Source of the DNA: a virus
IMG/VR virus record: IMGVR_UViG_3300022924_000003
Span: 1-49,900 of that record
DNA: 49,900 nucleotides
Reading direction: 5' to 3' (one strand)
A program made the position numbers and the translations under genes. This document shows, in pieces, positions 7,289 through 45,623 of this stretch. Numbering within the stretch: position 1 is the first letter of the stretch; the number at the start of each line of letters is the position of its first letter. Under the pieces are notes generated by a model. It was given only the letters and a program-made list of their open reading frames with translations. It searched no databases and had not been told where the DNA came from.

Positions 7289-7477
7289 ATGGCGCTTTAT
7301 GAGACGGATCTTAGAAAGCAGTGTTCCAAGTGTAAAAAGATTAAAGATAAAAGTATTCTCAATTTTGAACTGAAAGGTTCAAAATACTCCAGGGTTTGCT
7401 TGCTCTGCTCTCCTAAAAGAGTAAAAAGCTTTGTGAACCACTGGATGGATAAATGGGAAAAGGAAAGGGATTTATGA
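7289..7477 (+). CDS. 62-aa zinc-ribbon-like protein
   Basis: ATG at 7289. C-x2-C near residue 12 (QCSKCKK) and C-x2-C near residue 37 (VCLLCSP) form a four-cysteine site, then a Trp-rich charged helix (HWMDKWEKERD). Resembles the small zinc proteins at 854 and 3484. The TGA stop overlaps the next ATG. The family is not named with confidence. Confidence 0.6.
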   Translation: MALYETDLRKQCSKCKKIKDKSILNFELKGSKYSRVCLLCSPKRVKSFVNHWMDKWEKERDL

Positions 7478-7797
7478 GTAAGCTAGCAAAAATGATTCAA
7501 ACTCGAAGGCTTAAAATGGGCATGGGTAAAACTGCTCTCGCTAGAAGCTTAGGAGTGGAGCATAAGGGCTTTATTGACCGTATTGAGTCTGGGCTAAGGA
7601 AAGTACCTGTTACCTTCTTTCGCCCCTTAGCGGACGTCCTAGGGTACAATGTGCATGATTTAATTGATGCCTACCTAGAAGATAAGCGCCAAGAGATATT
7701 TAAAGAGCTTCATATTCTGACAGATAAAACCCCAAGCGTTTCAACTACGGCGAAGGTTAAAAAGACGGAAGATGGGGACCTATGCGGACTAGTGTAA
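7474..7797 (+). CDS. 107-aa XRE-family helix-turn-helix regulator with -CGLV tail
   Basis: Starts at ATG 7474 (ATGA overlap, GGGAAAGGG upstream). Residues about 6-65 give an XRE fold: MIQTRRLKMGMGKTALARSL, the turn GVEHKGFIDRIESG and the final helix FRPLADVLG. Residues 80-107 are a charged flexible tail ending CGLV; this L-V ending is shared by nine other phage proteins. The C-terminus overlaps the next gene by 16 nt. Likely a phage transcriptional regulator controlling the early-to-middle switch (inference). Confidence 0.75.
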   Translation: MSKLAKMIQTRRLKMGMGKTALARSLGVEHKGFIDRIESGLRKVPVTFFRPLADVLGYNVHDLIDAYLEDKRQEIFKELHILTDKTPSVSTTAKVKKTEDGDLCGLV

Positions 7798-8321
7798 TTT
7801 CTCCTAAATCCCTCCTTCTTAAGGCCAGTGCGGTTGAAGTGGTAAATGCGGTCCATGAAGCATGGGAAAAAGGAAGAATTTCAAAGTTTGCAATGACAGA
7901 GATTTACCGTGCCTTAATGGCCAGAGTAGGGAAGCCTGAGGATACCGTAGTGGAGCTTTCTAACGGGGTTAAATATTCTGTCAGAATGCTAAAATTTTTG
8001 TACTATGTAGAGCCCAAGTATCTTAAAGATTACTTATACTCATTGATTACTATTGTGGACTCTTCTGAAGGCACTTACGAATACAGTCAAGCAGTTACGT
8101 ATACTAAAATGAAGTTTCCTGCCCTTAACCACATAGAAATAGGCATAATTTTAAAAATAGTAGGAAAAAGCTTACGTTTAGTGAAAGTATACTCTAAAGG
8201 CGACTCCCCATTATTCCGAAGAGCGAAAGGTAACAGGGTAAGCTTTATTGATGCTAGAATGTCAGTAGAGAACGACGTAAAGAAAATTGCATACACAATG
8301 GATAAGTTGAAAATATGGTAG
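7782..8321 (+). CDS. 179-aa hypothetical protein
   Basis: ATG at 7782 overlaps the regulator by 16 nt with GGGGACC as ribosome site. A mixed alpha/beta protein with basic C-terminal half (FRRAKGNRVSFIDARM). The end overlaps the helicase start by 7 nt, so it is co-translated with the replication genes and may take part in replication, but no motif supports a specific role. Confidence 0.6.
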   Translation: MRTSVISPKSLLLKASAVEVVNAVHEAWEKGRISKFAMTEIYRALMARVGKPEDTVVELSNGVKYSVRMLKFLYYVEPKYLKDYLYSLITIVDSSEGTYEYSQAVTYTKMKFPALNHIEIGIILKIVGKSLRLVKVYSKGDSPLFRRAKGNRVSFIDARMSVENDVKKIAYTMDKLKIW

Positions 8322-9715
8322 TTACTCCGCGCGCACATCAGACTGAGTATTTAAATCTCGCCTTAAGCTCTCAATACTTGGGGCTAGTCGCCTTTCACGG
8401 TATGGGGCTAGGTAAAACTTACACTACCCTTTTGATGGCCAGGCATTTATTAGCAGAGGCCCGGGCCAAAGGCTTACTTTCTCCGAAGTTTATCATCTTC
8501 TGCCCTAAGTCTGCGGTAATTACTTGGAAGTCGGAGTGCCAAAAACTTACCCCTGATCTCATTAGAGACATGATCGTTTATCCCTATTCTCAAATGAAGA
8601 ATGCAGTAAAGCACTTAGGTAAGTCAGTTTTCCCCTACGTACTGTTGGGCCTGGACGAATGCCACTATTTAAAAACTCATGATACCTTAAGAATTAAAGA
8701 CTTCTCAGAAATGTTAGCGGCACTGGCCAAGAATCGATATGGTTTCACTGGTAAGGTTATGCCCATGACAGGTACTCCCATCCCAAACAACGCAGCTGAA
8801 ATCTATACAATGTGGGCCCTGTGTACTTCTAAGAATCTCCACGAAGCAAGTGCTAGGATGGTGGACTCTCAGAATTTTGAAATGTGGCGGGCGCTATTCA
8901 CAAATAGAAAAGACGTAAACTTTAAGCGCAAGAGCGCATTCAGCCCTACAGGATTCATTAATTGTTCAGCAACCTCTTATGAGGGAGTGGCCGAAGCAGA
9001 CAAACTTCACCAGTTGATTGCTCCGATCGTTCACTACAAGAGGGTACAAGATTGTATCGATTTACCCGAAGCAACTAGAACATTTCTGAATTTAGATTTG
9101 CAAGATGATAATCTTTTAAAAGATGCGGATATAGCTAAGCCTGACGCGTATATGTCTTTAATAGAGCGCATATCTAAGGCCAAGGCCCCGTATATGATTG
9201 AATGGGTAGAGGAGTTCTTAAAGTTAGACGAGCAGCTTGTAGTGTTCTCAATGTTTACTACTCCTCTAAGGATATTAGCGCAGAAGTTTCCAAAGCACGT
9301 AAAACTTATCACAGGCAGAGAGTCCCAAGCGGAAAGATCTGCTACTATTCAAGCTTTCCAAAATGGGACCGTTAAAGTTGTGGCCATGTCGTATAAAGCA
9401 GGCTCAGAGTCATTAAACTTTCAGCAGGCGAGAAATACCTTCTATCTGAATTTCCCTTGGAATGATGATACTTTAGAGCAGGCCATAGCGAGAACCAATC
9501 GAAGCGGGCAAAAAAGTGTCACTAACCACTACTTTATGATGAGCGGTGAAAATGATAGAAGATGCTATGATAGAGTCCTAATCAAAAGATTCGCCAACGA
9601 AGAAGTTAAGTCTAGGCTTCTAAATAACCCAATGGTTGGCAAATTTGTAAGTAATATGTTTGAAGACTTCGCTAGCGGTAATTTTGAATTTGATGACCTT
9701 GACGGATTGATATAA
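8315..9715 (+). CDS. SNF2-type DNA helicase/ATPase, 466 aa
   Basis: Superfamily 2 motifs in order: Q/I region RAHQTEYL, Walker A GMGLGKT at 29-35, DEXH box DECH at 114-117, motif III TGTPIPNN near 150, and in the second RecA domain AMSYKAGSESLNFQQA and the arginine-finger motif QAIARTNRSGQ near 388-398. This is the short SNF2 form found in phage replication modules, which moves on double-stranded DNA and remodels protein-DNA complexes. It has no nuclease domain. It ends DGLI, part of the shared C-terminal tail group. Co-located with nuclease, ssDNA-binding, polymerase and primase genes. Confidence 0.9.
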   Translation: MVVTPRAHQTEYLNLALSSQYLGLVAFHGMGLGKTYTTLLMARHLLAEARAKGLLSPKFIIFCPKSAVITWKSECQKLTPDLIRDMIVYPYSQMKNAVKHLGKSVFPYVLLGLDECHYLKTHDTLRIKDFSEMLAALAKNRYGFTGKVMPMTGTPIPNNAAEIYTMWALCTSKNLHEASARMVDSQNFEMWRALFTNRKDVNFKRKSAFSPTGFINCSATSYEGVAEADKLHQLIAPIVHYKRVQDCIDLPEATRTFLNLDLQDDNLLKDADIAKPDAYMSLIERISKAKAPYMIEWVEEFLKLDEQLVVFSMFTTPLRILAQKFPKHVKLITGRESQAERSATIQAFQNGTVKVVAMSYKAGSESLNFQQARNTFYLNFPWNDDTLEQAIARTNRSGQKSVTNHYFMMSGENDRRCYDRVLIKRFANEEVKSRLLNNPMVGKFVSNMFEDFASGNFEFDDLDGLI

Positions 9716-9749
9716 TAAGAGTTAGAATTTTATCGGGAGAAAAGTTGTC

Positions 9750-11009
9750 ATGAGAATATTAAAAGAATTTTTTACATTCGTGCGCCCAGCCGCTCACAGT
9801 CCATACTCTCCGAGTTCTTATGACCGTTGGAGTGCTGAAGCTTGCCCTGCAAGTGTACGCATTTCTGATGGAATATTTTTACCTGAGCAGGATTACACTA
9901 AGCGCGGAACACTCGCCCACAGCGTGGCAGAGGCCGTATTTCATAAAGAAGCCTATTTTGAAGAATTCCCATCTAAGCTCCTTTTGGACGTTGGAATGTG
10001 GGAACGTGAGCACCCAGGGGACTATGCTAATATGCTGGCCCATGGTTATGACTACGCCCAGGTAATTCAAGAATGGATGGATCCACAGAAAGTTGGAAAG
10101 ATCTTATGGCATGGGCTTGAGAAAGCTCTCCCTATTATCCCAGAGAAGAACGTATATGGTACAGGGGACTGTATTATCATTGGAACTAAAGCGGCCGTCG
10201 TAATCGACTATAAGTATGGGCAAAAGGCCGTAGCGCCTGACTCTCCTCAGCTCAAAGGGTATGCAGTAGCAATTTGGCGCCACCTTATGGACGTGCCAGC
10301 AGACTATAAATTCTATACCGTGGTCCACCAGCCAAACGTTTCCCCTATTGCAAAATATGCTGAAGTTCCAGCGGATGAGATTAAAAGAGTTTTTGAGGAC
10401 ATGTGGCGCGCAGTTGATCTTTCTAAAGATTTATCATGTGGCCCTAAAGAAGGAGCTCACTGTTTTTGGTGCCCTGCTAAGAGAACTTCAGACCCTATGA
10501 AAAAGTGCCCAGCAATTAAAGATAGGGCCATCAATGCGGCAGCAGAAAACTTTTCAGGCTTCTTTAAAGATATTAAAGGCACGGTTACTGTAATTGATAG
10601 AGACTATGAAGCTAGAAGAAATGCCGCAGCGGTTAAATTATTACTGATGAAAGATTTCTTAATGGACACTATTAAAGACCTTGAAGAAGAATACTCTTTA
10701 AGAGTTTCCCAAGGTGAAGTATTTCCTGAATTATCGATGGAAACTGAGTTTGGAAACAGAGAATGGATTGAAAAAGATCCTAAAGTATTATGTAATACCC
10801 TTCGAGCAACTTTGCCAGGGTTTGAACCATTAAAACTTATCCCCGCGGAGTATAAAGTTAAGACGATTACTGAGATAGAAAAAGAATTAAAGAATAAAAC
10901 TTGCCTCACAGGGTTAACAACTCAAAGAGGGAAGAAAGTACTGAAAATTAAGAACGAAGCAACAATCAATCTTCTAAGCACAATGCTTGGGATGACTACA
11001 AAGGAGTAA
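9750..11009 (+). CDS. DUF2800-like PD-(D/E)XK nuclease with Cys cluster, 419 aa
   Basis: ATG at 9750 lies behind GGGAGAAAAG. N-terminal SPSSYDRWSAEACPASVR and TKRGTLAHSVAEAVF match the start of the Cas4/AddB-type nuclease fold. Catalytic core: GTGDC with Asp140 and VIDYKYG with Asp153 and Lys155, the D-(x12)-D-x-K arrangement. Cys230, Cys238, Cys241 and Cys253 are placed as in AddB/Cas4 iron-sulphur nucleases. It is expected to trim DNA ends for recombination-dependent replication. The gene next door encodes a DUF2815-type ssDNA-binding protein, the usual pair for DUF2800. Confidence 0.85.
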   Translation: MRILKEFFTFVRPAAHSPYSPSSYDRWSAEACPASVRISDGIFLPEQDYTKRGTLAHSVAEAVFHKEAYFEEFPSKLLLDVGMWEREHPGDYANMLAHGYDYAQVIQEWMDPQKVGKILWHGLEKALPIIPEKNVYGTGDCIIIGTKAAVVIDYKYGQKAVAPDSPQLKGYAVAIWRHLMDVPADYKFYTVVHQPNVSPIAKYAEVPADEIKRVFEDMWRAVDLSKDLSCGPKEGAHCFWCPAKRTSDPMKKCPAIKDRAINAAAENFSGFFKDIKGTVTVIDRDYEARRNAAAVKLLLMKDFLMDTIKDLEEEYSLRVSQGEVFPELSMETEFGNREWIEKDPKVLCNTLRATLPGFEPLKLIPAEYKVKTITEIEKELKNKTCLTGLTTQRGKKVLKIKNEATINLLSTMLGMTTKE

Positions 11010-11012
11010 TTT

Positions 11013-11930
11013 ATGGCTAAGGAAAAGAACCGCGTATCGAAGTACTTGATTGGAAAAACCATCCAGCTTAGAGGGACACTGTTCTACCCTAACATTCTGG
11101 CACCTCGTATGGACGAGAGATCAAAGAAAGAAAAGTTTGGAGTAATGTTTGCATGGGAGCAAAATGAAAACCGTGAAGCTGTTGGCATTTTAAGCCAGTG
11201 GTTAGGTGAAATTAAGCAACAGATGCACCCTACTATTCCAGATTACGCATGGGTAAACCCACTTAAAGACTACATGACTACGAAGCGCACAGACGGTAAA
11301 GGGCACCCTGACTTCCTTAAAGGGATGAAGTGGATCAATGCTTCTAATCAAGCAGCTTTCCCTCCAGAAGTACTTATCAAAGAAGCAAACGCTCCAAGAG
11401 GTATGCGTCCAGCTACGGCCATGGATTCAGTTCAAATCTTTGATGGGCAGAAAGCTATCATCTCTCTTTCATTCTTTGGCCTTGATGGCGAAAACTCTAA
11501 ATGGGGAGTTAGCGCAAACATCGACGCTGTATTGATTGAAGGTGGCGGAGCTAGAGTTCTTACAGGTAACGGTGGGATTGATGTGAACCAAGCTTTTGGA
11601 TCTTTCTTAGGGCAAATGGGCGGACAGCCGCAACAAGCTCCTCAGCAAAATAATTTCCAACAGGCGCCTCAGCAAACTCCTCAGTACGCTCCACAAGAGA
11701 ACAACATGGGAAACGGACATACGGGTCATCAGTCGGGCAATTATGCTACGGGTGCAAATCCGAACGCTATGCCGAATCAACATGGTCAGACACAGGGTGC
11801 AAATGCATACCCTTCTAATCCCCCACAGCAAAACCCTCAGCAAGGGCAGAACTATGGCCAACAGTTTAACCAACAATTTCCAAATCAAAATGGATACGGA
11901 AACAATAACAATGGCGGGAGTCTGGTTTAA
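11013..11930 (+). CDS. DUF2815-like ssDNA-binding protein, 305 aa
   Basis: ATG at 11013 follows AAGGAG. Residues 1-190 form the conserved globular domain (QLRGTLFYPNILAPR, KFGVMFAW, GMRPATAMDSVQIF, ISLSFFGLD, WGVSANIDAVLIE), which I assign to the DUF2815/ssDNA-binding group by its sequence and its position after DUF2800. Residues 200-302 are a low-complexity Gln/Asn/Pro/Gly linker, comparable in role to the disordered tail of bacterial SSB. It ends GGSLV rather than an acidic tip, so the tip could be a protein-binding handle. Expected to coat ssDNA at the fork. Confidence 0.8.
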   Translation: MAKEKNRVSKYLIGKTIQLRGTLFYPNILAPRMDERSKKEKFGVMFAWEQNENREAVGILSQWLGEIKQQMHPTIPDYAWVNPLKDYMTTKRTDGKGHPDFLKGMKWINASNQAAFPPEVLIKEANAPRGMRPATAMDSVQIFDGQKAIISLSFFGLDGENSKWGVSANIDAVLIEGGGARVLTGNGGIDVNQAFGSFLGQMGGQPQQAPQQNNFQQAPQQTPQYAPQENNMGNGHTGHQSGNYATGANPNAMPNQHGQTQGANAYPSNPPQQNPQQGQNYGQQFNQQFPNQNGYGNNNNGGSLV

Positions 11931-11958
11931 CCAGGCCCCGTGCTAATTAGGAGCATTT

Positions 11959-12093
11959 ATGATTGCAGGAGCACCAATGGACTCTACCCACCGCCTTCCT
12001 ACCAGCTGGCAGTTATTCTACAATTCAAAAGGTAGATACCGACCATTCAAGATGAAGTTTAAGACTAACAAGGCCAAATGGGCGAAACAATAA
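11959..12093 (+). CDS. 44-aa basic small protein
   Basis: Short frame from ATG 11959 with TAGGAG at 11948-11953, ending at 12091-12093 just before the TAGGAG site of the next gene. The C-terminal half is strongly basic (KGRYRPFKMKFKTNKAKWAKQ region). A ribosome site on each side and its position in the replication cluster support it as real. Function unknown; nucleic-acid binding is possible from charge. Confidence 0.5.
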   Translation: MIAGAPMDSTHRLPTSWQLFYNSKGRYRPFKMKFKTNKAKWAKQ

Positions 12094-12109
12094 TTAGGAG
12101 AAAAGTAAA

Positions 12110-12703
12110 ATGAAACTCACGCTAAACATCGAAGTGGACAACTGCGAAGAACTTTCTGGAATTGCTGAAGCTTTAAAAGGTTTCGTATCTGCAGAACAAA
12201 CAACTTCTTCAGTTACCCATGAAACAGATTCAAAAAATTACCTAGAGGAAGCAGCTGCCCCTAAAGCAGCACCGGCTAAAAAGGGCGGAAAAGCTAAGAA
12301 AGTGGATCCAATCTTTCCAGCGCCATCAGCTGACGATATGATTCCTGAGCCTTCTCCATACTCTCAACCAGGACCTGTACCAAGTGCGCCTCTAGTGAGC
12401 CATGAACCTCAGGTAATGCCTCCTGCAGTTCCTCAATCAGCGCCAGTTCAAGCTGCTCCGACTTTTCAAGGGCTCCCAAACGCTGTAGAAATTATCAAAG
12501 CAGAAGCCGGAAAACTTGAGAAATCTAACCTTGATACTGAGTCTAAGAGAGCAGTAATTAGAAGACTTCTTGATAAGCTTAGTGCGCCTCAAGGCGTTCC
12601 AGCATCTCAGCTTCCTGAGCCTTTCCTTTCACAATTTGCAAGTCAGATTGGGCAAGAAGTTCATAATGCTATCAATGGCGCAGTTTCTAATGGGCTAGTG
12701 TAG
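12110..12703 (+). CDS. 197-aa Pro/Ala-rich protein with -NGLV tail
   Basis: ATG at 12110 behind AGGAGAAAAG. Residues 1-30 are a small ordered start (KLTLNIEVDNCEELSGIAEA). Residues 40-120 are Ala/Pro/Lys-rich and disordered (AAAPKAAPAKKGGKAKK, then repeated Pro-Ser). Residues 121-197 are predicted helical (VEIIKAEAGKLEKSNLDTES). It ends SNGLV, one of ten shared endings. The architecture (head, flexible linker, helical tail) suggests a tethering protein for replication partners (inference). Confidence 0.65.
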   Translation: MKLTLNIEVDNCEELSGIAEALKGFVSAEQTTSSVTHETDSKNYLEEAAAPKAAPAKKGGKAKKVDPIFPAPSADDMIPEPSPYSQPGPVPSAPLVSHEPQVMPPAVPQSAPVQAAPTFQGLPNAVEIIKAEAGKLEKSNLDTESKRAVIRRLLDKLSAPQGVPASQLPEPFLSQFASQIGQEVHNAINGAVSNGLV

Positions 12704-12710
12704 GTTTAAA

Positions 12711-13202
12711 ATGAAAAATGCAAAACTTACAAACAAGCCTTTAAGAGAGTTAGCTTTTGCTACGGGGGTCCCAGTGACCCTCTTACTCACTTGGAAAAAT
12801 AGATTTAAAGATATTGGCCATGTAAGAAAGCGCGCTATGCACATTGCTGAAATGGCAAAGCAGAATAACCTTCCAGTTTCACAAGTGGCCTACCAGAATG
12901 AAGTGGTGGACCTATTTTCTGAAGTTGGGAACACTGCCAATACTTTAACTGGTATCCTTGAAGCTATCCAAAAGCACATGCCTTGTCAGCAAGCCCAGTA
13001 CGCCCTACAAGACGCTGCGGCCATCGCTCTACATTGCCAGGACTTTATTATGAAAGGACCTAAACCGCCTGATTTAGAAGTTCCTCTAACTGCTAGCGGA
13101 GACACTGAGGAAACTCAGGTTGAGCTACCTTTAGCTGAAGAAGCTTTTGAAGCGTTCACAGATTCTCTTCAAGAAACTCAAGATGGTGCTGGTCCAGGGT
13201 AA
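12711..13202 (+). CDS. 163-aa HTH-like protein
   Basis: ATG at 12711, 7 nt after the previous stop. Residues 9-30 (KPLRELAFATGVPVTLLLTW) resemble a helix-turn-helix with Trp in the recognition helix. Residues 60-115 are helical (QNEVVDLFSEVGNTANTLTG). The C-terminus is acidic (GDTEETQVELPLAEEAFEAF). The stop shares its last base with the polymerase start (TAATG). Possibly a replication accessory or terminase-like DNA-binding protein; not named. Confidence 0.55.
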   Translation: MKNAKLTNKPLRELAFATGVPVTLLLTWKNRFKDIGHVRKRAMHIAEMAKQNNLPVSQVAYQNEVVDLFSEVGNTANTLTGILEAIQKHMPCQQAQYALQDAAAIALHCQDFIMKGPKPPDLEVPLTASGDTEETQVELPLAEEAFEAFTDSLQETQDGAGPG

Positions 13203-15208
13203 TGATAACTAAAAAGATCCCTTTCATTTTTGACTTTGAAACAAGAAGTGCTTTAGATCTTACAGAAGTGGGGGCGGTTAAATACTGCCTCCATCCTTCT
13301 ACTGGAGTAACCTATATTTCATACTGCTTTTCAGAGCATGACAGAATGAAAGAATGGTCCCCTTTCCTTGGCACGCCTGTACCTGCTGAGCTAGTCGATG
13401 TGGCCAACAATCCTGATAAGTACCTTTTGATCGCTCATAACGTCGAGTTTGATTACTTGGTATACTCTCAAGTTTGGCGAAAGCTATTCGTGAGCTTTAT
13501 GCGCCCATCAATTTCAAGTGTTCATGATAATATGTCCGTGTCAAACTACTTCCGCCTTGGGTCTTCGCTAGAGGCAAACGCTGGAATGCTTAATATCCCT
13601 CTTCGTAAACATGAAGAAGGTAGAAAAGTAATGAAGCTCCTCATGCGCCCAGACAAAGGTGGAAGGTTTCCAGTTCCAACTCCTCAACAGTATAAAGACT
13701 TTGCCATGTACGGTAAGGGTGATACTGAAATGTTAAGACAGGCGCATTTTAGAATGCCTCACCTCCCAGCATTTGAAAGATGGGTTTGGGAGTGGACATT
13801 TAAAACCAATCTCACCGGCGTACGTGTAGACGTTCCCCTTATAAAACTCCTTAAATCTATCGTGGATCAAAATCGCCCTGCTAAAGAGCAGCGCTTTATG
13901 CAGATCACAGGATGCGGAGTAAATTCACACGTTAAAGTTAAAGCCTTCTTTAAGCAGTACTACCCTTTCATTGAAGACATGAGAAAGGAAACTGTTGAAG
14001 AGCTCTTACTTGATGAAACTCCAGTGCCTTCATACGTTCGCGAAGCTTTAGATATTAAATTTCTCATCGGGTCCACGGCCATCTCAAAAATTGAGAAAGC
14101 TTTAGACATCGTAGTTGGAGACAGAATTTACGGACTTTTCGATTACGCTAAGGCGCAGACTAAACGCTTTGCGGGTAAAGGTATTCAGCCTCAAAACTTT
14201 CCTCGCTTCGATACGGATAGGCTTGATAATTTAGACCATATTGATTTCAACGTTGAGGACTTGGTAAGCGTAGTTGCTCCAATGATCCCTACCCTTAAAG
14301 ACCCTATTGGATTTGCGAAAAATCTACTGAGAAGAATTTGGCTCCCAGAGCCTGGAAAAGAATTCTTGTCTGGAGACTTTTCTAAAATCGAACCGACCAT
14401 GCTTTTCTGGCTCCTTGATATGGGCCCTATTCCTGATAGATGGTACGAAGAACTAGCAGCGGATCTTTACGGAATTCCCCTAGATCAAATTGGTAAAGAC
14501 TCTGAAGAGCGCCAAGTTGGTAAGGCCGGACAGCTTTCATGTGGATACGGTGCAGGCGATAAATCTTTCCGTGTTAAAACTTTAAATGATACTGGAATTC
14601 TTCTTACTGAAGAGATGGCAAAGAAAGTAATTTTCACTTACCGAAACAAATACCCTCAAGTGGTTCAGTTCTGGAGTGATTTAGAGGACGCTTTTGGCGC
14701 AGCTATTAATGGGCGCGTGACAAAACTTTGCCGCGGAAGAATTACAGTTATGCCTATGGCCCATCCGTGGCGTGGGGTAATGATTGTACTTCCAAATGGA
14801 TCCAAGCTGTACTACCACGGCGCCACTCAGCAAATGGTTAAATCAACACGTACCTTCTACACAATTGAAGAGGGCCGTAAAGTTAAAAAAGTAGAAGAGT
14901 CTAGAAAGCTCGCGTATACATACCTCGAAGTTGACTCTAAGGGTAACACGCGACCTAAGACAGTATATGGCGGATTATTGTGTGAAAATGTTGTCTCGGC
15001 CACAGGGCGCGAGGTAATGACTCCAGCTATGTGGAGACTAGAGCAAGCAGGATTCACCGTCTGCGGCACTGTACACGATGAATTATGGGGTATTGCTGAA
15101 CCTGGCAGAGCTAAAGAGTTTGAGCACATCATGTCAATAGTTCCTGACTGGTGCCATGATGCAGTAATCAAGACTGAAGTGAAAGGCGGAGTAAGATATC
15201 TGAAGTAA
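13202..15208 (+). CDS. family A DNA polymerase with 3'-5' exonuclease, 668 aa
   Basis: Exonuclease domain: FDFETRS (Asp11, Glu13), AHNVEFDYL (Asn80, Asp84) and a Y-GKGDTEM element near 180. Polymerase domain: motif A DFSKIE (Asp392, Glu397), O-helix motif R437-x3-K441-x3-L445-x3-Y449-G, motif C VHDEL (His625, Asp626, Glu627). The residue equal to E. coli Phe762 is Leu445. No 5'-3' exonuclease domain. Length compares with T7 gp5 (704 aa). It copies the phage genome with the primase-helicase downstream. A clamp-like gene at 47995 could serve as processivity factor (inference). Confidence 0.93.
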   Translation: MITKKIPFIFDFETRSALDLTEVGAVKYCLHPSTGVTYISYCFSEHDRMKEWSPFLGTPVPAELVDVANNPDKYLLIAHNVEFDYLVYSQVWRKLFVSFMRPSISSVHDNMSVSNYFRLGSSLEANAGMLNIPLRKHEEGRKVMKLLMRPDKGGRFPVPTPQQYKDFAMYGKGDTEMLRQAHFRMPHLPAFERWVWEWTFKTNLTGVRVDVPLIKLLKSIVDQNRPAKEQRFMQITGCGVNSHVKVKAFFKQYYPFIEDMRKETVEELLLDETPVPSYVREALDIKFLIGSTAISKIEKALDIVVGDRIYGLFDYAKAQTKRFAGKGIQPQNFPRFDTDRLDNLDHIDFNVEDLVSVVAPMIPTLKDPIGFAKNLLRRIWLPEPGKEFLSGDFSKIEPTMLFWLLDMGPIPDRWYEELAADLYGIPLDQIGKDSEERQVGKAGQLSCGYGAGDKSFRVKTLNDTGILLTEEMAKKVIFTYRNKYPQVVQFWSDLEDAFGAAINGRVTKLCRGRITVMPMAHPWRGVMIVLPNGSKLYYHGATQQMVKSTRTFYTIEEGRKVKKVEESRKLAYTYLEVDSKGNTRPKTVYGGLLCENVVSATGREVMTPAMWRLEQAGFTVCGTVHDELWGIAEPGRAKEFEHIMSIVPDWCHDAVIKTEVKGGVRYLK

Positions 15209-15273
15209 TTGACGAATCAAAATATACCTGAAAAACTAACCAAACCTAAATTCGACCAATAGGAGGGCCATGT

Positions 15274-15792
15274 ATGGCAAGAGCTAAAAAGGTAGTGAAG
15301 AAACTCACTAAAGCTGAAAAAATTATCAAAGAGAAAAGATCCCGATCAGGTAAAAATGCTAACCGTAAAGGCAAAGCTTTTGAACGTGAAGTTGCTACCC
15401 TCATGGGGCATATCTTTTCTGAAGCTAAAAGACATTTAGAATTTCAGGCAGACGAAGCTGCAGAAGGAGTTGATCTTTCTAATACTGATATTTTTAAATT
15501 TCAATGTAAGAACCATCAAAACTATTGCTCCATTTCCACAATCTTCGAGGTTAAGTTAACTTCACCCGATGACATTCCAGTTCTTCTTACCAAAGGTAAC
15601 AAGCTCGAAACTATGGCAGTCCTACCATTCAGAGATTTTCTCCGGATGCTAGCAATTTGCTATGGAATAGATGATCCCTTTGTTTCAAAAGAGCAGAGAA
15701 AACTTTTACCTGCAGCACAAGTAATAAAAGGTCTTCCGCCTTTCGCTACTAAAGACATTGAAGAGCTTTCAGAATTACACGATTTAGTATAA
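15274..15792 (+). CDS. PD-(D/E)XK Holliday-junction-resolvase-like nuclease, 172 aa
   Basis: ATG at 15274 has AGGAGGGCC upstream. Basic N-terminus (residues 1-37, many Lys), then the fold signature: RKGKAFEREVATLMGHIF near 31-48, with Glu as first acid, VDLSNTDIFKFQCKN near 66-80, with Asp and the Q-x-K pair (normally E-x-K). Gln replaces the usual Glu; in this resolvase-like phage family such variants are known. It would cut branched DNA before packaging. It ends HDLV, part of the shared ending group. Confidence 0.68.
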   Translation: MARAKKVVKKLTKAEKIIKEKRSRSGKNANRKGKAFEREVATLMGHIFSEAKRHLEFQADEAAEGVDLSNTDIFKFQCKNHQNYCSISTIFEVKLTSPDDIPVLLTKGNKLETMAVLPFRDFLRMLAICYGIDDPFVSKEQRKLLPAAQVIKGLPPFATKDIEELSELHDLV

Positions 15793-15801
15793 GGCCATAA
15801 A

Positions 15802-17859
15802 ATGAGTTTAAAAGCTATTCGCCTTATCCCAGGCACGAAAATATCTCGTGATCTGGAAGCGGGCAACGAGAAAATTTGGGATTACTCAGAGCTTATAAAT
15901 GCAGGCGTTCCAGAAATTGGAATTCCGCTAGCAATGAACGGCCTAATTGTTATCGATATTGACGTTCCAGGAGAATCTCACAAATACGACGGGCGCCCAT
16001 GGTGGCGTGCTTTCTGTGAGGAGCATGGAATCCCTAGAACTTTTACTATTTGTACGCGTTCTGGAGGGTACCATTTCTACTTTAGGATTCCTCCTCATAT
16101 TAACATCGCCCTATTCAGGCCGCCAGGACAACTGGCTCTTGGAGTAGATGTTAAATATGATGGGTATGTGGCAGCTCCACCTTCTCAAGGGTACTCTGTT
16201 CACCCCCAGGGAAATCCATCCATCATCGACTTGCCAGAAGCGTTCCTTAAGGAATTTGAAAAGGTAAAGAATACTAGCACGACCACTACTTATGAAGTCG
16301 GAGGAGTGCCAGTAATTCACAGAAGTTTTTCAGCTGAGCAAGTTGGATGGCTTCGTAAGCATATACCTTGGATCCAAACCAATGTGGGACTTACAAGAGA
16401 TGAATGGCGAGACGGTATCTTTTCACTTAAGGCCGGAGCGTATAACGACTCAGCAATTTTAGAAGAGCTAGTGGTTGCTTGGACAAGAAATAGAAACTAC
16501 TCAGTAGGAGATGAAGTTGGGGCAATGTCCATAGCGGATAAGGCCGATGCTTTTGGAGATATTGGGCCAGGAACAATTTTCTCTTTGATCCAAGGAATAT
16601 TTCAGCGTGAAGGTTACGTTTCTGAAGGAGCTTCAATTTCTTCAGTTGAGATTTTAGACCGAGCTGGAATTACTTATGACTTCAATAAGAAAGGTCAGAT
16701 AAAATTTAACGATACTGAGTCTAATACCTCTGCGATTATTTCCCACTTCGTACCTGAGAAAGATTTATATTTTGATGTGAGAAAAGATCTCTACATTTAC
16801 AAAGGTAAGCCTTCTTCAGATAAAGAAATTTTAAGTGCTATCATGCCATCAATCCAAAAACCTCTATCTGGTTTAGGATTTGAAAATCTACGAAAGCCTG
16901 TTCTTATTTCAGGCCTAGAAGTAACGCTTTACCAAAGGCAAGTGGATCCACATAAAGAATGGCTTAAGGGTATCAAGTGGGACGGAGTTGAGAGAATTGA
17001 AACTTCTTTGATTAAAGCTTTCGGGCTTGCTGATACTCAGTACCATAGAATTTTAGGCCTTAACATGTGGACCGTTCTAGCAGCTAGAGGTTTGCGCCCA
17101 GGGTGCAAGTTCGACTCCGTATTTGTTCTAGAAGGTAACGAAGGGATTAGAAAGTCATCATTTGTAAAACTTATCGGGCGAGACTATTTCTATTCAGCTA
17201 GAGGAAAAAACATTCTTACCGACCTAGATAGCTTGCGCCAAATGCACCAAGCTGTGACAGTGGAATTTCCAGAGCTAAAAGGTCTTATTGATTCAGACGG
17301 CGAAACCTCTAAGTCATTTACCGCTCAGGAGATAGATACAATTCGAGGTTTGTGGGAACGTAAGGCCATGCCAATGCCTAGAGGCTTTGTCCTGTTTGGA
17401 ACTACCAATGAGGAAGAGTATCTTCAAAGATCCATGGGGGATAGAAGATGGTGGCCGATTAAAATTCCGCCGACTCTTAAGCATATCGACCTCGACTTTG
17501 TTGAGCGCAACCTTGAGCAGTTTTATGCTGAAGGGATTCAAAGGTACAAGGACGGATATGAGTACTGGCACATGCCGAAGAATTTGTTGGATCCAATTAT
17601 TAAAACTAAGCAGAAGGATAACGACTTCATTGGGTACGTTCAAGAGCTATCCAGTAAGCTTGGAAACCAGTTTACTTCTCTCGAAATGTACTCAGAGCTA
17701 GCAAAGCTAGGGGTAGTTGGAAAAACGCTCACAGACCCCGTAGGAAAGCGTATAACAGGCGCTCTTACAGACCTTGGGTATTACAAACATACTGAAGGGT
17801 ACAAGACTGTGTGGATGAAGAACCACTTTAACTTGGAAAACTTAGGCGATTTAATATAG
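15802..17859 (+). CDS. VapE-like primase-polymerase/helicase, 685 aa
   Basis: N-terminal prim-pol domain: PLAMNGLIVIDIDVPG with Asp52 and Asp54, and SGGYHFYFR near 87-95. After a middle domain comes the VapE/VirE P-loop ATPase: LEGNEGIRKSSFVKLIG around 443-460 with Lys451, ELKGLIDSDGE (acidic box), FGTTNEEEYLQ and GDRRWWPI near 548-553. It would make primers and unwind DNA; fused primase-helicases of this kind replace separate gp4-type enzymes. Arg450 takes the place of the usual Gly before the P-loop Lys. It ends GDLI. Confidence 0.88.
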   Translation: MSLKAIRLIPGTKISRDLEAGNEKIWDYSELINAGVPEIGIPLAMNGLIVIDIDVPGESHKYDGRPWWRAFCEEHGIPRTFTICTRSGGYHFYFRIPPHINIALFRPPGQLALGVDVKYDGYVAAPPSQGYSVHPQGNPSIIDLPEAFLKEFEKVKNTSTTTTYEVGGVPVIHRSFSAEQVGWLRKHIPWIQTNVGLTRDEWRDGIFSLKAGAYNDSAILEELVVAWTRNRNYSVGDEVGAMSIADKADAFGDIGPGTIFSLIQGIFQREGYVSEGASISSVEILDRAGITYDFNKKGQIKFNDTESNTSAIISHFVPEKDLYFDVRKDLYIYKGKPSSDKEILSAIMPSIQKPLSGLGFENLRKPVLISGLEVTLYQRQVDPHKEWLKGIKWDGVERIETSLIKAFGLADTQYHRILGLNMWTVLAARGLRPGCKFDSVFVLEGNEGIRKSSFVKLIGRDYFYSARGKNILTDLDSLRQMHQAVTVEFPELKGLIDSDGETSKSFTAQEIDTIRGLWERKAMPMPRGFVLFGTTNEEEYLQRSMGDRRWWPIKIPPTLKHIDLDFVERNLEQFYAEGIQRYKDGYEYWHMPKNLLDPIIKTKQKDNDFIGYVQELSSKLGNQFTSLEMYSELAKLGVVGKTLTDPVGKRITGALTDLGYYKHTEGYKTVWMKNHFNLENLGDLI

Positions 17860-17894
17860 TAAAAGAAATATTCAGGAGATACACTTAAACTAAT

Positions 17895-18071: not shown

Positions 18072-18353
18072 ATGATCGATATCGTACACATTAATAAACG
18101 TATGAAGGAGCAAGCGGACATCTTCGCTAACCTTAGGGCCGAACCAAATACTCCCGAATGGACCAATTACTGGAATGCTTTCTTTACCGGATGGAAAGAA
18201 GTCGAAGCAAGCTTCTATGCCATGGAGGGACTTATCCTAATTAAAGATCGGGAAATTAAAAAGCTTGAAAGCCAGCTTAAGAAATTAGGTGGAGCTAAAG
18301 AGGAAGATCCTACCCCTGTTGAAGAGGCAGGAACTTTGGATGATCTTATTTAA
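18072..18353 (+). CDS. 93-aa hypothetical protein with -DDLI tail
   Basis: ATG at 18072 follows TTGGGAGAAT. Residues 1-75 are helical, with a Trp-rich middle (EWTNYWNAFFTGWKEVEASF) and a coiled-coil part (DREIKKLESQLKKLGG). The last 20 residues are acidic and flexible, ending GTLDDLI. It is the last gene of the plus block; its stop at 18351-18353 overlaps the minus-strand endolysin end by 8 bp. It follows the structured RNA, which may regulate it. Confidence 0.65.
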   Translation: MIDIVHINKRMKEQADIFANLRAEPNTPEWTNYWNAFFTGWKEVEASFYAMEGLILIKDREIKKLESQLKKLGGAKEEDPTPVEEAGTLDDLI

Positions 18354-37009: not shown

Positions 37010-37022
37010 ATACTCACCTTAC

Positions 37023-37628: not shown

Positions 37629-37647
37629 AAGGGGTCCTTAAATTCTA

Positions 37648-38001
37648 TTAAACTAAAGAAGACGCATTATCATTCTTTGCAGTATGTACTGGCGGTACTT
37701 TTTTTACTGTAGCTTTCTTCGCGGCAGCCGGCTTAGCTGTTTTTGGCTTAGCTGGAGCAGAGGCAGAAGATTCTGTTGAAGCCCCTTTCTCTTTACCTAG
37801 AGCTTTCTCTAGAGAGCCTGCGACTTTCTCCTCCATCCAAGGAGCAAGAGTTCTATCATACACTTTACCGCTGAACACAAACTCTTCGCCTGATTCAATG
37901 ATTTTTCCGTCAATGTATCCTTTATCAATAGCAACTACCGATAAAGATACGGGTTGTCCGTCTGTGCGTTTTTTATATCCGTTCGATTTTAATCCGGCCA
38001 T
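37648..38001 (-). CDS. 117-aa hypothetical virion-region protein with Ala/Lys tail and -SSLV end
   Basis: ATG at 38001 follows a weak GGGGGAA site. Residues 1-70 are a small beta-rich domain (PVSLSVVAIDKGYIDGKIIE); residues 72-117 are an Ala/Lys/Pro linker (SAPAKPKTAKPAAAKKATVK) that ends in SSLV. It lies just after the cement-protein terminator and before the gp11-like gene. Possibly a head or connector accessory; not recognised. Confidence 0.6.
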   Translation of the reverse strand: MAGLKSNGYKKRTDGQPVSLSVVAIDKGYIDGKIIESGEEFVFSGKVYDRTLAPWMEEKVAGSLEKALGKEKGASTESSASAPAKPKTAKPAAAKKATVKKVPPVHTAKNDNASSLV

Positions 38002-38018
38002 ATTTCCCCCTGAAACAA

Positions 38019-38045
38019 TAAAAGGAGAGGACGAATCCCCTCCCT
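38019..38045 (-). terminator. rho-independent terminator after the capsid/cement genes
   Basis: On the minus strand the stem GGAGGGGA/TCCTCTCC (8 bp, one G-U) closes a UUCG tetraloop and is followed by TTTTATT. It sits just after the cement gene. Like the T7 terminator behind gene 10, it would raise capsid and cement transcripts relative to the tail genes (inference). Confidence 0.82.
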
Positions 38046-38062
38046 TGGTTAAACTTTAATAA

Positions 38063-38506: not shown

Positions 38507-38539
38507 AAATAACCTCTTTATTTAAGGGTGAAGCGCTAA

Positions 38540-39550: not shown

Positions 39551-39625
39551 TGAATATCCCTCTCTTAAAGGTAGTTTACGTTTCTAATATTAAGCTTCTG
39601 CGTTGTTTTAAACTAAGTCAACGTT

Positions 39626-40318
39626 TTATTTTGGGTCTTTGAAAAATTCTGGATACGCTTTTTCTAAACCTGTTTTTTCTTCTGTGGCGCTTGCAGGAGC
39701 CCCCTGCCCTTGTGGAGCAGAAGTTACTGGACGCATAGAAGCTCCAAGGGTTGCAAGTAGCTTAACAATATGTTTGTTGTTACCAAGCAAAGGGTTACTC
39801 TTCATCTCTTTTACAAGCTCTGGATCTTTATAGTTCTCATATACCCTAGCAATGTCTTCCTTCGCCTGCTTCTGCTTCTCTTTAGTATCGAAGTAAGGGT
39901 CTTTTACTAAGTCTTCAATGAGTCTTTTGCCTTCATTAGAAATATAAGTATTCTTCGCTTTTCCAAAAGCTTTATCTAAAAGTGAAAGCCTTGCTTGTGC
40001 TTCATCTTTTGAAAGTCCTTTAGCTTGGGCCTCTGCCACTAAAGCATCAAAGTCTTCATCCGGAACTAAAGAATCTTCTTCCAGTTCAAGAGTATATTCA
40101 TTTGCTTCTACTCCAGTATCCCCTGCAAAAGGCTCTGCTGGAGCTGGAGTTTCTACAGGCTCATCTGACATGAAGTTATCCGCAGGCGTTGCCGCCGCAG
40201 CTGGAGTGCCTGTTGAAGCAGGTGCCGCTGGTGCTGGAGTTCCAGTATTAGACGAGGGCGTCTGGGTAGGTGTTTGGTTCGCTGCCGGTGTTGGCGTCTC
40301 TGTTGTTTGTGCGCTCAT
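39626..40318 (-). CDS. capsid scaffolding protein, 230 aa
   Basis: Acidic, Pro/Thr/Ala-rich N-terminus (residues 1-75, NTGTPAPAAPASTGTPAAAA) followed by charged helical sequence (EDFDALVAEAQAKGLSKDEA). A helix-rich C-terminal half is standard for podovirus scaffolds. Position directly upstream of the capsid gene. ATG 40318 is chosen with AAGGAG at a 10-nt distance; a TTG at 40327 would be too close. The start overlaps the upstream gene by 71 nt. Confidence 0.8.
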   Translation of the reverse strand: MSAQTTETPTPAANQTPTQTPSSNTGTPAPAAPASTGTPAAAATPADNFMSDEPVETPAPAEPFAGDTGVEANEYTLELEEDSLVPDEDFDALVAEAQAKGLSKDEAQARLSLLDKAFGKAKNTYISNEGKRLIEDLVKDPYFDTKEKQKQAKEDIARVYENYKDPELVKEMKSNPLLGNNKHIVKLLATLGASMRPVTSAPQGQGAPASATEEKTGLEKAYPEFFKDPK

Positions 40319-40622
40319 AAATTGCAATCTCCTTTTTACGATTTGCGTCTTCCTGGATCATTTTAAGCATAGCTTCTGGGTCGTAGAACTCAATATCTGC
40401 TAGGAGCTTAAGCCCCATATTCCTTTTCCCTGCGTTGAACATAATTACTTTTTCATCCAAAGGGTCTGCCTGGAAAATTCCACAGTCCGCAATGATTGAA
40501 TACGCTAAGGCCCTGCCTTGAGCAGTAGAGAGTAATTGTTTGTACCCAAGTTCCACTATTTGTAAGTGCCCTGCAATTACTTCATGAGTGATTTCTTTTA
40601 GCTCGTTCTTTTTCTTGCTCAT
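40248..40622 (-). CDS. Bbp19-like protein, 124 aa, with -DALV tail
   Basis: Contains AQGRALAYSIIADCGIFQ near 34-51 and FNAGKRNMGLKLLADIEFYD near 64-83, followed by PEAMLKMIQ. These match the Bbp19 group of small podovirus proteins (A..GR..l....CGif....f..G.R..GL.ll..l....pe....M). Adjacent to the portal start as in BPP-1-like genomes. Function unknown; likely a head-morphogenesis protein. The last 71 nt overlap the scaffold gene. Ends PDALV. Confidence 0.72.
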   Translation of the reverse strand: MSKKKNELKEITHEVIAGHLQIVELGYKQLLSTAQGRALAYSIIADCGIFQADPLDEKVIMFNAGKRNMGLKLLADIEFYDPEAMLKMIQEDANRKKEIAIYERTNNRDANTGSEPNTYPDALV

Positions 40623-42431: not shown

Positions 42432-42437
42432 TCTAAC

Positions 42438-42992
42438 CTAGTTTTGAAAAGGGTTTTGCCCGAGATAGAAGTTGAATGTCGGAGTAGGAGATTCTTGAGT
42501 TGCTGACCCAGGCCCCTTCACCCCTTTAACACTTCGACTTCTTTTCTGTTTTTCCATTTGGAGCTGCTCTGCTCCTGTGCGCTCGTATTTACCTGCAGCA
42601 TTTACAGGAGTTTCAAAATTCCCTACTGAAGGATCGTATGAGTTTGCTGGAGTTACCGCTTGCTGATTTTGGATATTGTTTGGGATTCCTGCCGCTGTAC
42701 CTAATTGCGCCACTCCTGCTTGAGGAATCGCACCAGGTTGAGCTGCTGCGGCCATAGGGATATTTCCTACCTGTGCAGCTGCTGCCATTGGAGGCTGCCC
42801 AACTTGCGCCGGTGCAGTCTGAGGAGGTGTTCCTGGCCTAGCGGCTTGAGCTGCAGGAGGGTTTCCCATAGCAGAAGGCTGAACTGCAGGAGGTTGCCCT
42901 ACTGTTCCAGATCTTACCGTAGGAATTGACCCAGGCATGATTTCAGCTTTATTAGCTTTTGAAGGAGTTACCTTACGCGTTTTCTTTGCCAT
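42438..42992 (-). CDS. 184-aa Pro/Ala/Gln repeat protein between portal and terminase
   Basis: Lys-rich start (MAKKTRKVTPSKANK), eight imperfect 11-aa repeats at residues 19-106, then a basic segment (QMEKQKRSRSVKGVKGPG) and the ending PTFNFYLGQNPFQN. It is unlike any family I recognise. Low complexity means it is probably extended. ATG at 42992 with AGAGGTTA. Position between the portal and large-terminase genes suggests a head or connector accessory (inference). Confidence 0.65.
   Translation of the reverse strand: MAKKTRKVTPSKANKAEIMPGSIPTVRSGTVGQPPAVQPSAMGNPPAAQAARPGTPPQTAPAQVGQPPMAAAAQVGNIPMAAAAQPGAIPQAGVAQLGTAAGIPNNIQNQQAVTPANSYDPSVGNFETPVNAAGKYERTGAEQLQMEKQKRSRSVKGVKGPGSATQESPTPTFNFYLGQNPFQN
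42675..42938 (-). repeat. eight 33-nt (11-aa) tandem repeats
   Basis: The protein repeat pattern is x-x-G-x-x-P-x-A-x-A-x: copies include QVGQPPMAAAA, QVGNIPMAAAA, QPGAIPQAGVA, RPGTPPQTAPA and AMGNPPAAQAA. Copies differ more at DNA level than at protein level, so the array is old or selected. Repeat number might vary between relatives. Confidence 0.75.
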
Positions 42993-43004
42993 TATATTAA
43001 CCTC

Positions 43005-43334
43005 TTAAAATGTTCCGGAAGTAGAGCTACCACTATTACTTTGACCTAAACCTTGAGAAGTGTCCACACCTTGATTTGTGTTTCTTCCCCTTCCAGCTTC
43101 GGTAGAGATGACTGAATCTGCCTGGATCCTAGCGGATAAGCTGTTTAAAGCGGCATCGTATCGAGCTTTCTCAATGGCGTCCGCTTGATCCTTCTGTGCG
43201 TTCTTCTGCATACGCATTTGAGAGTTGTTCTGTTGCGCCATAGCTAGAGACATGCCCCCAGTAAACGGAGCTAAAGCTGCGCCCACAAGCCAGTTCTGAT
43301 CTTCTTCGCCTAATGTGATATCTAGAATTCCCAT
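43005..43334 (-). CDS. 109-aa hypothetical protein
   Basis: ATG at 43334, 4 nt after the terminase stop. Residues 10-40 contain a short Gly/Ala-rich hydrophobic stretch (LVGAALAPFTGGMSLAMAQQ) that resembles gp14-type or connector N-termini; then Gln/Asn/Lys-rich helix; then a Ser/Gly/Asn tail. It might be a virion accessory. No family assigned. Confidence 0.55.
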   Translation of the reverse strand: MGILDITLGEEDQNWLVGAALAPFTGGMSLAMAQQNNSQMRMQKNAQKDQADAIEKARYDAALNSLSARIQADSVISTEAGRGRNTNQGVDTSQGLGQSNSGSSTSGTF

Positions 43335-43338
43335 AATG

Positions 43339-45030
43339 CTACGCCTTATAGTTTGAGTGCATCATCCCGTAGTAATCATCTACGTCATTATCTTCAGCAT
43401 AATATTTATTTTTGCTGCCTGCAATTAATCTTTTGGCCAGCTCATCCATCTCAGGAGGGGCAGCGTTTCCATGGATAGAATTAAAATCGTCTGGATCCAT
43501 AAAAGTTTGCGCTAAAGCATCCGCCCTGTCGGGAGATCTACCAATGCGCTTTCTGATATCTTCTTTTGATTCTAATTTAAACTGGGTTCCCGCGAAGAAA
43601 AGTTTTGGCGCTAGAAGTTCTTTTTTAAGCTGCTCGTCTTTTGGAAGGGCCCCTCCGTCCCTTACCCAGTCTCGCATCCTTACCCACATCTGAGTACGAA
43701 TGTTATTATATTTCTGAGGCTCTACTGATTTTTTATTATATACAACTGGCACTACGTCGGTACTTCCTTCAGTCTTTAAGAAATCGATAACTGATGAACC
43801 ATACCCTCCAGTAGCGTCGACGTATATCCTGTTTACTCCTGTACTGCCTTTCTCAAAGAGTACTCTTCCTGCAACCTGTGCCCCATCTTGCTCTGATGAA
43901 ATCAGCGTATAAGGGAAAGCTTTAAGGCCCTGACGTCTGAATAGAATAGTCGAATCGGCGCCACCTCTGGCAACATCTACTCCTAGACGCTGTTGTTTGA
44001 CATTGTAAGCTTTCGGATCCATTACTCTATCCATCGCCTCATCAATCTCACGCTCTGAAAGTAGCATTTCAGTAGTTGAATCTGGATACTCTCCAAAAAC
44101 GTTAATCTTTGTATAGATGTGATCGCGCCCATAAAGAGCAATTACCGACCTTGCCCATTCCTTAGATACTCGCTTCGCGCGGTTATCCGCATCAGGGTCG
44201 GAAGTAATGTTCATGATCTTCCATTTCTGGTGCTCTAAAGTTCCTTTGAAGGCACGATAGATAATTCCAGAAGGTCGCTCTGGATTGGCCACAACCATGA
44301 TTCGCGCACGTTTTGGAATCTTTACTTTCTTCGGATCCGCATCAGCATTGGCGAGGGCCGCATCTGCGGTCGTGAATAGAGAGTCTGGCATCATACCTGC
44401 CTCATCAATTAAGAACCCTACGTTATCGGCGTGAAGCCCTGCTAGCGCTGATTGCATGTCCGACTCATTCGCCTGCTTAGGGAATGACCTGGCAGAGATG
44501 AAAGCAATACCCTCTTTACCGTATACGTGAATCTTAGAAGAATCCCCTGAGATAGTTTGCATTAAAACTTTTGAACGTGATCGCCACTTTAAAAGCTCTG
44601 ACCATAAGTTATCTCGAAGGTGATCTTGGGTAATTGATAAAGCTGCGAGTTTTGTCTCAAAGTACATTGTGAGAAAGTGAAGCCCTACCCAGCTAAGGCC
44701 CGCAGTTTTACCTGGCCCTTTACTCGCCACAACTCCCACACGTTCGTAATCCATATAGTTTTGAAGGAACTCTTCCTGCCAAATATCTGGAGTAACGTCA
44801 AAGTGATCCTGGACAAATATCAAAGGACGCTCACGCCATAGCTTTATGATTGCTGCCGGCTGAAGGTCCATAGGTTTATCGAGGTACCTTAAAACACTTG
44901 GAGTCGTATCGGGGGTAAATATTTTCTTCTCTGGAGGAGTCCAAATCTTTTTAGGTTGAGGATTAAATTCCGCAAACGCTTGGATTGGTTCTGGCTGATT
45001 AAACCCTAGAAGATCATCTAAAGAGCTCAT
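43339..45030 (-). CDS. terL: terminase large subunit, 563 aa
   Basis: ATPase domain: Walker A ASKGPGKT at 102-109, Walker B FLIDE at 206-210 and the coupling motif VVANPERPSG near 246-255. RNase H-like nuclease domain: GVDVARGGADS with Asp352, YVDATGGYG near 405, and SPDRADALA near 506-514. The enzyme pumps DNA through the portal and cuts concatemers. Start at 45030 overlaps the small subunit (ATGA). Confidence 0.96.
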   Translation of the reverse strand: MSSLDDLLGFNQPEPIQAFAEFNPQPKKIWTPPEKKIFTPDTTPSVLRYLDKPMDLQPAAIIKLWRERPLIFVQDHFDVTPDIWQEEFLQNYMDYERVGVVASKGPGKTAGLSWVGLHFLTMYFETKLAALSITQDHLRDNLWSELLKWRSRSKVLMQTISGDSSKIHVYGKEGIAFISARSFPKQANESDMQSALAGLHADNVGFLIDEAGMMPDSLFTTADAALANADADPKKVKIPKRARIMVVANPERPSGIIYRAFKGTLEHQKWKIMNITSDPDADNRAKRVSKEWARSVIALYGRDHIYTKINVFGEYPDSTTEMLLSEREIDEAMDRVMDPKAYNVKQQRLGVDVARGGADSTILFRRQGLKAFPYTLISSEQDGAQVAGRVLFEKGSTGVNRIYVDATGGYGSSVIDFLKTEGSTDVVPVVYNKKSVEPQKYNNIRTQMWVRMRDWVRDGGALPKDEQLKKELLAPKLFFAGTQFKLESKEDIRKRIGRSPDRADALAQTFMDPDDFNSIHGNAAPPEMDELAKRLIAGSKNKYYAEDNDVDDYYGMMHSNYKA

Positions 45031-45623
45031 ACTAAACCTTCTAGTTCATCAGAAATTACAGCGTTTTCTTTTTTCTTTTGGTCCCTTAAAACTATGTACT
45101 GGGCCTCAATGGTTTCCACTGACTCTCTGACGTTGTAAGATTCTAAAATTAAATCTGACACTGAAATATTATGGTTGATATCAATCTTCTGAACGAAATC
45201 CCCTCCCGCCTTACCGAGAAGTTCAAGAGATTTGAGTCGTTCTGAAATTGAAATTTTTACATCTATGGGGTTTCCAAAAGTGTCCACTTCTTCCTTGGCG
45301 TAGGGGTCAATGCCTCTTGCTAGGGCGGATAACATTTCCAGGCGCTCGTTCTTATTCATTACGGCCATATTAACGGCAGCATCCGTATCCGCTCTAGTTC
45401 TAAGCGCGTGCTGAATCTTTGGCTGCGCCAATAGGGACTTACATTTATGGCGTAAGTATTCATCTGTACCAAGCCAACCGGCGACTCTCATAGAGTATAC
45501 CGCTTCTCCATTAAAGCACGCTATGAAGCGCTTCTCTTTAGCAGAGTACCGTTCCTCACTGTTATGTTGAGCGGATGCCTTTACGGGCATGTATGATAAT
45601 AGGTCGTAGTCATCTTCCTGCAT
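45027..45623 (-). CDS. terminase small subunit, 198 aa, with -EGLV tail
   Basis: Immediately upstream of and overlapping terL. Features: YSAKEKRFIACFNGEAVYSM with AGWLGTDEYLRHKC near 48-61, then LLAQPKIQHALRTRA, the pattern of terminase small subunits (KEKRFI..Y....a..AG......L...P.v...i...). The following helix-rich region fits the oligomerisation domain. It recognises the packaging site. ATG at 45623 with AGGAG. Ends LEGLV. Confidence 0.75.
   Translation of the reverse strand: MQEDDYDLLSYMPVKASAQHNSEERYSAKEKRFIACFNGEAVYSMRVAGWLGTDEYLRHKCKSLLAQPKIQHALRTRADTDAAVNMAVMNKNERLEMLSALARGIDPYAKEEVDTFGNPIDVKISISERLKSLELLGKAGGDFVQKIDINHNISVSDLILESYNVRESVETIEAQYIVLRDQKKKENAVISDELEGLV

Follow-up and report, generated by a model that had tools for sequence, protein, structure and literature searches.

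Unrelated proteins of one phage genome share a C-terminal tail that changes in concert among its relatives

Introduction

Why would ten apparently unrelated proteins encoded by one phage genome end in Leu-Val or Leu-Ile? The question was raised by a complete virus record of 49,900 bases, referred to here as the window, and the original prediction offered a degron, a PDZ-type ligand or a docking tag for one hub protein as possible meanings. Precedents for shared C-terminal docking tails exist in phages (T4, T7), where they involve two or three proteins each. Here, at least six unrelated families, the terminase small subunit (TerS) among them, share one tail, and that tail changes as a set across divergent genomes.

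Genome content and C-terminal endings

In its structural genes, namely those for portal, major head and Bbp19-like proteins, the window resembles epsilon15/BPP-1-like podoviruses, and its replication module encodes an SNF2 helicase, a DUF2800 exonuclease, a gp2.5-type single-stranded DNA-binding protein (SSB), a family-A DNA polymerase, a PD-(D/E)XK-like nuclease and a Prim-Pol/VapE primase-helicase. All ten of the Leu-Val/Ile endings originally listed are present at the positions given for them, accounting for 10 of the 53 predicted proteins (non-overlapping open reading frames of at least 60 aa), where 0.46 are expected from the internal frequency of L[VI] (binomial P = 3.6e-11); no other class of C-terminal residue pair in the window does better than P = 0.006. 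With proteins encoded on distant phage contigs as background in place of the host proteome, 13 of 2,332 (0.56%) end in L[VI]; checks of Cobetia, Microcystis and two Vibrio phages revealed none. The sharing of an ending across unrelated proteins is a real observation.

Six of the ten carry a longer tail, L-x-[GD]-L-[VI] (0.02 expected), designated class A. These are the helix-turn-helix (HTH, XRE) regulator (7453..7797, + strand, with alternative starts at 7453 or 7474; ..DGDLCGLV), which an HMM search joins to the tailed HTH family of the relatives, the SNF2-type helicase (8315..9715, +; ..FDDLDGLI), the PD-(D/E)XK-like (resolvase-like) nuclease (15274..15792, +; ..SELHDLV), the Prim-Pol/VapE primase-helicase (15802..17859, +; ..ENLGDLI), a 93-aa protein (18072..18353, +; ..GTLDDLI) and TerS (45027..45623, -; ..DELEGLV). 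Class B tails are present on the SSB (11013..11930, +; ..GGSLV) and the Pro-rich protein encoded after it (12110..12703, +; ..VSNGLV), hereafter the post-SSB protein. As such, the ten proteins do not form the single group first proposed: six share the longer tail, the SSB and post-SSB protein form a sub-type, and a 117-aa virion-region protein (37648..38001, -; ..SSLV) and the Bbp19-like protein (40248..40622, -; DALV) stand apart for reasons given below. The family-A polymerase (13202..15208, +) ends in RYLK and has no tail, and neither does the DUF2800 / PD-(D/E)XK exonuclease (9750..11009, +) in the window.

The identity of TerS is secure, with a terminase small-subunit family matched by all 15 members; its gene overlaps the start of the large-subunit gene, and its structure model (pTM 0.42) is weak apart from the helical core. 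The gp2.5-like phrog_112 is matched by 13 of 13 SSBs, and a model of the window polymerase matches Pol I structures. A tblastn search of cultured phages with the window SSB gave no match, a PDB profile search with the post-SSB protein returned low-complexity matches only, and the polymerase, when searched for in bacterial and archaeal genomes, yielded three distant matches and no host.

The match between the ten endings had been placed at the protein level rather than in a DNA repeat, and this is borne out by the last codons (CTA GTG, TTG ATA, CTG GTT, TTA GTA, CTT ATT and others), which differ, as do the downstream sequences and the gene spacings; a ribosome-binding-site or overlap effect is thereby ruled out. 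An origin in the DNA itself, whether through common 3' ends, start codons that overlap, or ribosome-binding sites encoded within the last codons, is refuted for these ten genes by their codons and downstream sequence and has practically no probability left, given also that orthologues swap amino acids in concert (see below). Such a cause may exist elsewhere, as in L022, where consecutive genes end in KKA[SN][ED]K.

Tails in related genomes

Profile scans of IMG/VR with alignments of SNF2, polymerase, VapE and capsid proteins recovered 14 related genomes; viral contigs had given no matches when scanned with a single VapE or capsid sequence, whereas the alignment-based scans succeeded. Polymerase identity to the window is 43-55% in 13 of the 14 and about 34% in the remaining one, G007. 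The relatives' genomes were read whole, with gene calls being the longest non-overlapping open reading frames, and proteins were sorted into families with BLAST and iterated HMM searches; together with the window, the 15 genomes span about eight clades.

The position of the tail is kept, in that the same families are tailed in nearly every genome, and the tail sequence is genome-specific, with variants such as LDDLI, IDDLI, LDTFI, LxxYL and EDLGL. In G008 the tails are KIDDLI (TerS), TLDTLI (SNF2), ALDTLI (nuclease) and RLDDLI (VapE), and in G014 they are SLSDFI, SLDTFI, DLANFI and SLDNFV respectively, with DISDFI on the HTH regulator and DLGSFI on the 93-aa protein. G005 has LEGKYL, LLARYL, SLSTYL and LMSQYL on the same four proteins and LGSKYL on the 93-aa protein. 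The closest relative, G016 (polymerase 55% identical), nevertheless has a class A tail different from that of the window: LTTLGL (TerS), YEDLGL (SNF2), MKDLGL (nuclease) and SEDLGL (93-aa protein). In the divergent G007 the tail is retained in TerS (FLEDIL) and VapE (FLSDIL) only, and the L and F types are mixed in G015 and in single proteins of G002 and G006. Other codes occur further afield: Vibrio phages 1.185.O and MZH0603 have theirs on partly the same proteins (DUF2800 DEISFF, SNF2 VNFF, TerS DVSFM/DISFM), the SSB and two further proteins of Rhodoferax phage P26218 end in DDLL or DLL, and L106 has DFY/DFV endings on DUF2800, SSB and other proteins.

Conservation of Leu-Val/Ile among orthologues, on which the original prediction had staked its case, is thus partial, with the whole set now ending in Phe-Ile, Tyr-Leu or Gly-Leu in several relatives. 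A shared partner gains more support from such a set-wide switch than it would from simple conservation. Concerted change on proteins without common ancestry calls for a selective agent acting on all of them, the simplest being a binding partner in common.

Concerted change of the tails

The original prediction had proposed that tails in related genomes be compared with shuffled sets, and within-genome sharing proves to lie well above permutation. For TerS, SNF2, nuclease and VapE, the similarity of the last five residues between unrelated families of the same genome is 11.9, against 5.9 +/- 0.5 when genomes are permuted within families (p = 2e-4, the permutation floor), and a control set of structural genes, polymerase and DUF2800 gives p = 0.93 in the same test. 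With seven families the similarity is 12.6 against 5.8 +/- 0.4 shuffled, and the effect persists when each clade is reduced to a single genome or outliers are left out; the seven-family figure counts a 276-aa protein of G011 within a ~200-aa family of which it is not a member. Because related genomes are not independent, we also simulated each family evolving independently on the tree of the structural genes; the within-minus-between difference is 6.39 observed and at most 1.77 simulated. The tails therefore change together across genomes, beyond both permutation and tree-simulated independent evolution.

In 14 of the group's 15 genomes an unbiased per-genome shared-ending score is significant, with p no higher than 0.009; the exception is G004 (p = 0.07). 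The score is weak or absent (p 0.05-0.40) in three capsid relatives (G021, G022 and G026) and the Cobetia phage; the three have no match in either polymerase search, and the annotation of the Cobetia phage lists no polymerase.

Proteins set apart from the class A set

The SSB and post-SSB protein have [GS]-[FL]-[IV] endings whose sub-class covaries between the two (p = 0.005). In G016 this sub-type does not match the class A tail, and there may therefore be two partners. The ending of the 117-aa virion-region protein is conserved, most orthologues having an [LI][VI] end, and is found in L- and F-type genomes alike; being indifferent to the class A switch, this protein is excluded from the covarying set. 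Orthologues of the Bbp19-like protein lack the DALV ending, which is probably due to chance, and the protein was dropped. The 276-aa protein of G011, encoded 5' of SNF2, is a PAPS-reductase-domain protein and may likewise owe its ILNEWV ending to chance. The suggestion that the tag extends beyond replication accordingly stands for TerS and falls for Bbp19.

A putative docking motif and its candidate partners

In VapE, the nuclease, the SSB and TerS, a conserved domain is followed by a linker divergent in both length and sequence, and then by the tail. We propose that the tail serves for docking: a short C-terminal motif of the pattern hydrophobic-x-x-hydrophobic-hydrophobic-COOH, mostly accompanied by acidic residues, at the end of a flexible linker of variable length. 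Its three hydrophobic side chains would fall on the same face of a helical turn. Proteins of replication, recombination, regulation and packaging that are unrelated to each other would all bind one common, co-evolving partner, and when the pocket of that partner changes in a lineage (e.g. from accepting Leu to Phe or Tyr at position -2) all client tails would follow. Of the meanings first put forward, a docking tag for one hub fits best, with the same orthologues tailed and the tail changing in concert between genomes, and we consider it likely that the tails are a motif of this kind read by a single co-evolving partner.

The partner may be the family-A DNA polymerase that the phage itself encodes. 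Of the universal non-structural families, the polymerase and DUF2800 alone have no regular tail, and some relatives have a tailed DUF2800; no phage sliding clamp was found in the 14 genomes (no match to PF00712, PF02916 or PF00705 at E <= 1, a search that a very divergent clamp could escape). The polymerase is thus the leading candidate by elimination, and by analogy with T7, in which acidic tails of gp4 dock on the polymerase gp5, though tentatively and at somewhat less than an even chance. A search for column covariation across 18 families did not point to it, with one top column in the polymerase against 5.5 expected and the signal dominated by outlier genomes.

The OB-fold groove of the gp2.5-type SSB could instead receive the tails, which would then compete with single-stranded DNA while the SSB gathers helicase, nuclease, primase and terminase. 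The SSB is universal in the group, and in crystals the C-termini of Enc34 SSB, DUF2815 proteins and T7 gp2.5 occupy the groove of an adjacent molecule (PMC5686142); the SSB's own tail is, however, of a different sub-type, unlike class A in G016, and covarying columns were not enriched in the SSB in the 18-family search, so that we regard this hub as unlikely. Also doubtful is a host protein that differs between hosts, such as the host clamp or another replisome part. The Vibrio-phage tails, [IV]-[SN]-F-[FM], somewhat resemble the bacterial clamp-binding core QL[SD]LF, but the Gln is missing from those of the window group, whose spacing also differs. Moreover, the pocket of the host clamp is conserved across bacteria, so lineage-by-lineage rewriting of the tails would not be expected, and sharing is weak or absent in the capsid relatives without the polymerase module. 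Tails acting as C-terminal degrons or PDZ-type ligands, timing the turnover of early and packaging proteins through a host or phage protease or adaptor, are very improbable: a shared adaptor would likewise yield shared tails, and a hydrophobic C-terminus can serve bacterial proteases as a recognition signal, but the neighbouring residues here are mostly acidic, the tails are confined to DNA-handling proteins, the docking tails of T4 and T7 are a better match, and nothing found favours a degron or PDZ ligand over a dock on the replisome.

Returning to the polymerase, the fuller picture is one in which helicase, primase-helicase, nuclease, SSB, HTH regulator and TerS are organised by one tail-reading hub, most likely the family-A polymerase serving as a clamp-free tool belt, with the code rewritten lineage by lineage on all clients and packaging physically linked to the replisome. 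We place this just short of evenly balanced. The tails offer a sequence-only route to interaction networks in uncultured phages, predict that the 93-aa and post-SSB proteins, whose function is unknown, belong to the set, suggest a connection of replication with packaging that can be tested, and supply many matched variants for mapping the co-evolution of a docking code and its reader. If the one-hub reading is true, they would constitute a natural set of orthogonal code-reader pairs.

Comparison with known systems

Open-access literature searches found no description of a multi-protein shared C-terminal motif of this kind, and the known systems resemble it in part. The hydrophobic-x-x-hydrophobic-hydrophobic spacing recalls the core of the PIP box, and nuclease, helicase and primase are typical clamp clients; the conserved Gln of the PIP box and QL[SD]LF is missing here, however, as are identifiable homologues of PCNA, beta-clamp and gp45. 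The bacterial SSB C-terminus (DDDIPF) is similarly an acidic then hydrophobic docking peptide on a disordered linker, but there one carrier has many binders whereas here there are many carriers, and the sequences are unlike, with no terminal Pro-Phe following acidic residues in these tails.

T7 provides the closest parts list, with the same SSB superfamily and polymerase family and with tails on both SSB and primase-helicase. The gp4 tails dock on basic patches of the family-A polymerase gp5 (PMC12593628), and the gp2.5 tail is implicated in interactions with polymerase and primase-helicase (PMC5686142). T7 gp2.5 and gp4 end in EDGDF and NDTDF, whereas the ends here are LV, LI, FI or YL, and the strongly acidic Phe-ending tail is absent from the window, whose tails end in V or I. 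The SSB linker is Gly/Asn/Gln-rich rather than acidic, the primase-helicase is VapE-type rather than gp4-type, and helicase, nuclease, HTH regulator and TerS are tailed as well, whereas the TerS of T7 lacks a tail of this sort.

The clearest precedent is T4, because the C-termini of gp43, gp55 and gp33 are highly similar, interchangeable, hydrophobic and acidic, and dock on the gp45 clamp (PMC2988020); the T4 terminase is connected to the gp45 network through gp55 (PMC9026906). The phages described here differ in having no clamp gene detected in the 14 genomes, polymerases without a tail (ending in RYLK or similar), more client families, TerS among them, and an unlike tail sequence. As with the T4 clamp tails, several unrelated proteins of one phage bear similar tails on variable linkers, and the similarity of tails within each genome would be consistent with their being interchangeable here too.

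C-terminal endings in the virion gene region

The 117-aa virion-region protein (37648-38001) belongs to a family in which most orthologues retain an [LI][VI] C-terminus, independent of the type of class A tail (L-x-[GD]-L-[VI] in the window). This family may therefore have its own partner, distinct from that of the class A tails and perhaps the capsid. A conserved ending of a single family is seen in the small protein encoded between the large terminase subunit and portal genes (43005-43334), with -GTF (SGTF or AGTF) closing 11 of its 13 orthologues. Close to the terminase small subunit gene, tRNA-Gln (TTG) and tRNA-Pro (TGG) genes lie side by side (46120-46281).

Features of the compared genomes

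The family-A polymerase of genome G017 (L068, 9998-12736) is 912 aa long, compared with the usual ~665, and thus contains a sizeable inserted segment that may be an intein or a homing element. The 'CRISPR spacers' annotated in the Vibrio phage 1.185.O record (L002, 28101-28318) lie within a protein-coding gene and are probably a mere internal repeat.

Shared endings in other phages

The KKA[SN][ED]K endings in contig L022 belong to consecutive, almost overlapping genes (325-2114) and look like a DNA-level effect, either of start/stop overlap or of a ribosome-binding site, providing a useful contrast to tails shared at the protein level. Lineage-specific common C-termini other than the window's occur in distant phages encoding a single-stranded DNA-binding protein (SSB) and/or a DUF2800 exonuclease: DFY/DFV in L106, DDDPLA (twice) in L128/L131, YxxDL and DDLDI in L072/L127, DPLFx in L107 and LSVF[ND] in L362. 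The cultured Rhodoferax phage P26218 (L385) has its own shared tail, in which three unrelated proteins, one of them an Enc34-type SSB, terminate in DDDLL, DIDDLL and VDDLL (genes at 1919-2821, 4737-5342 and 10603-11181).
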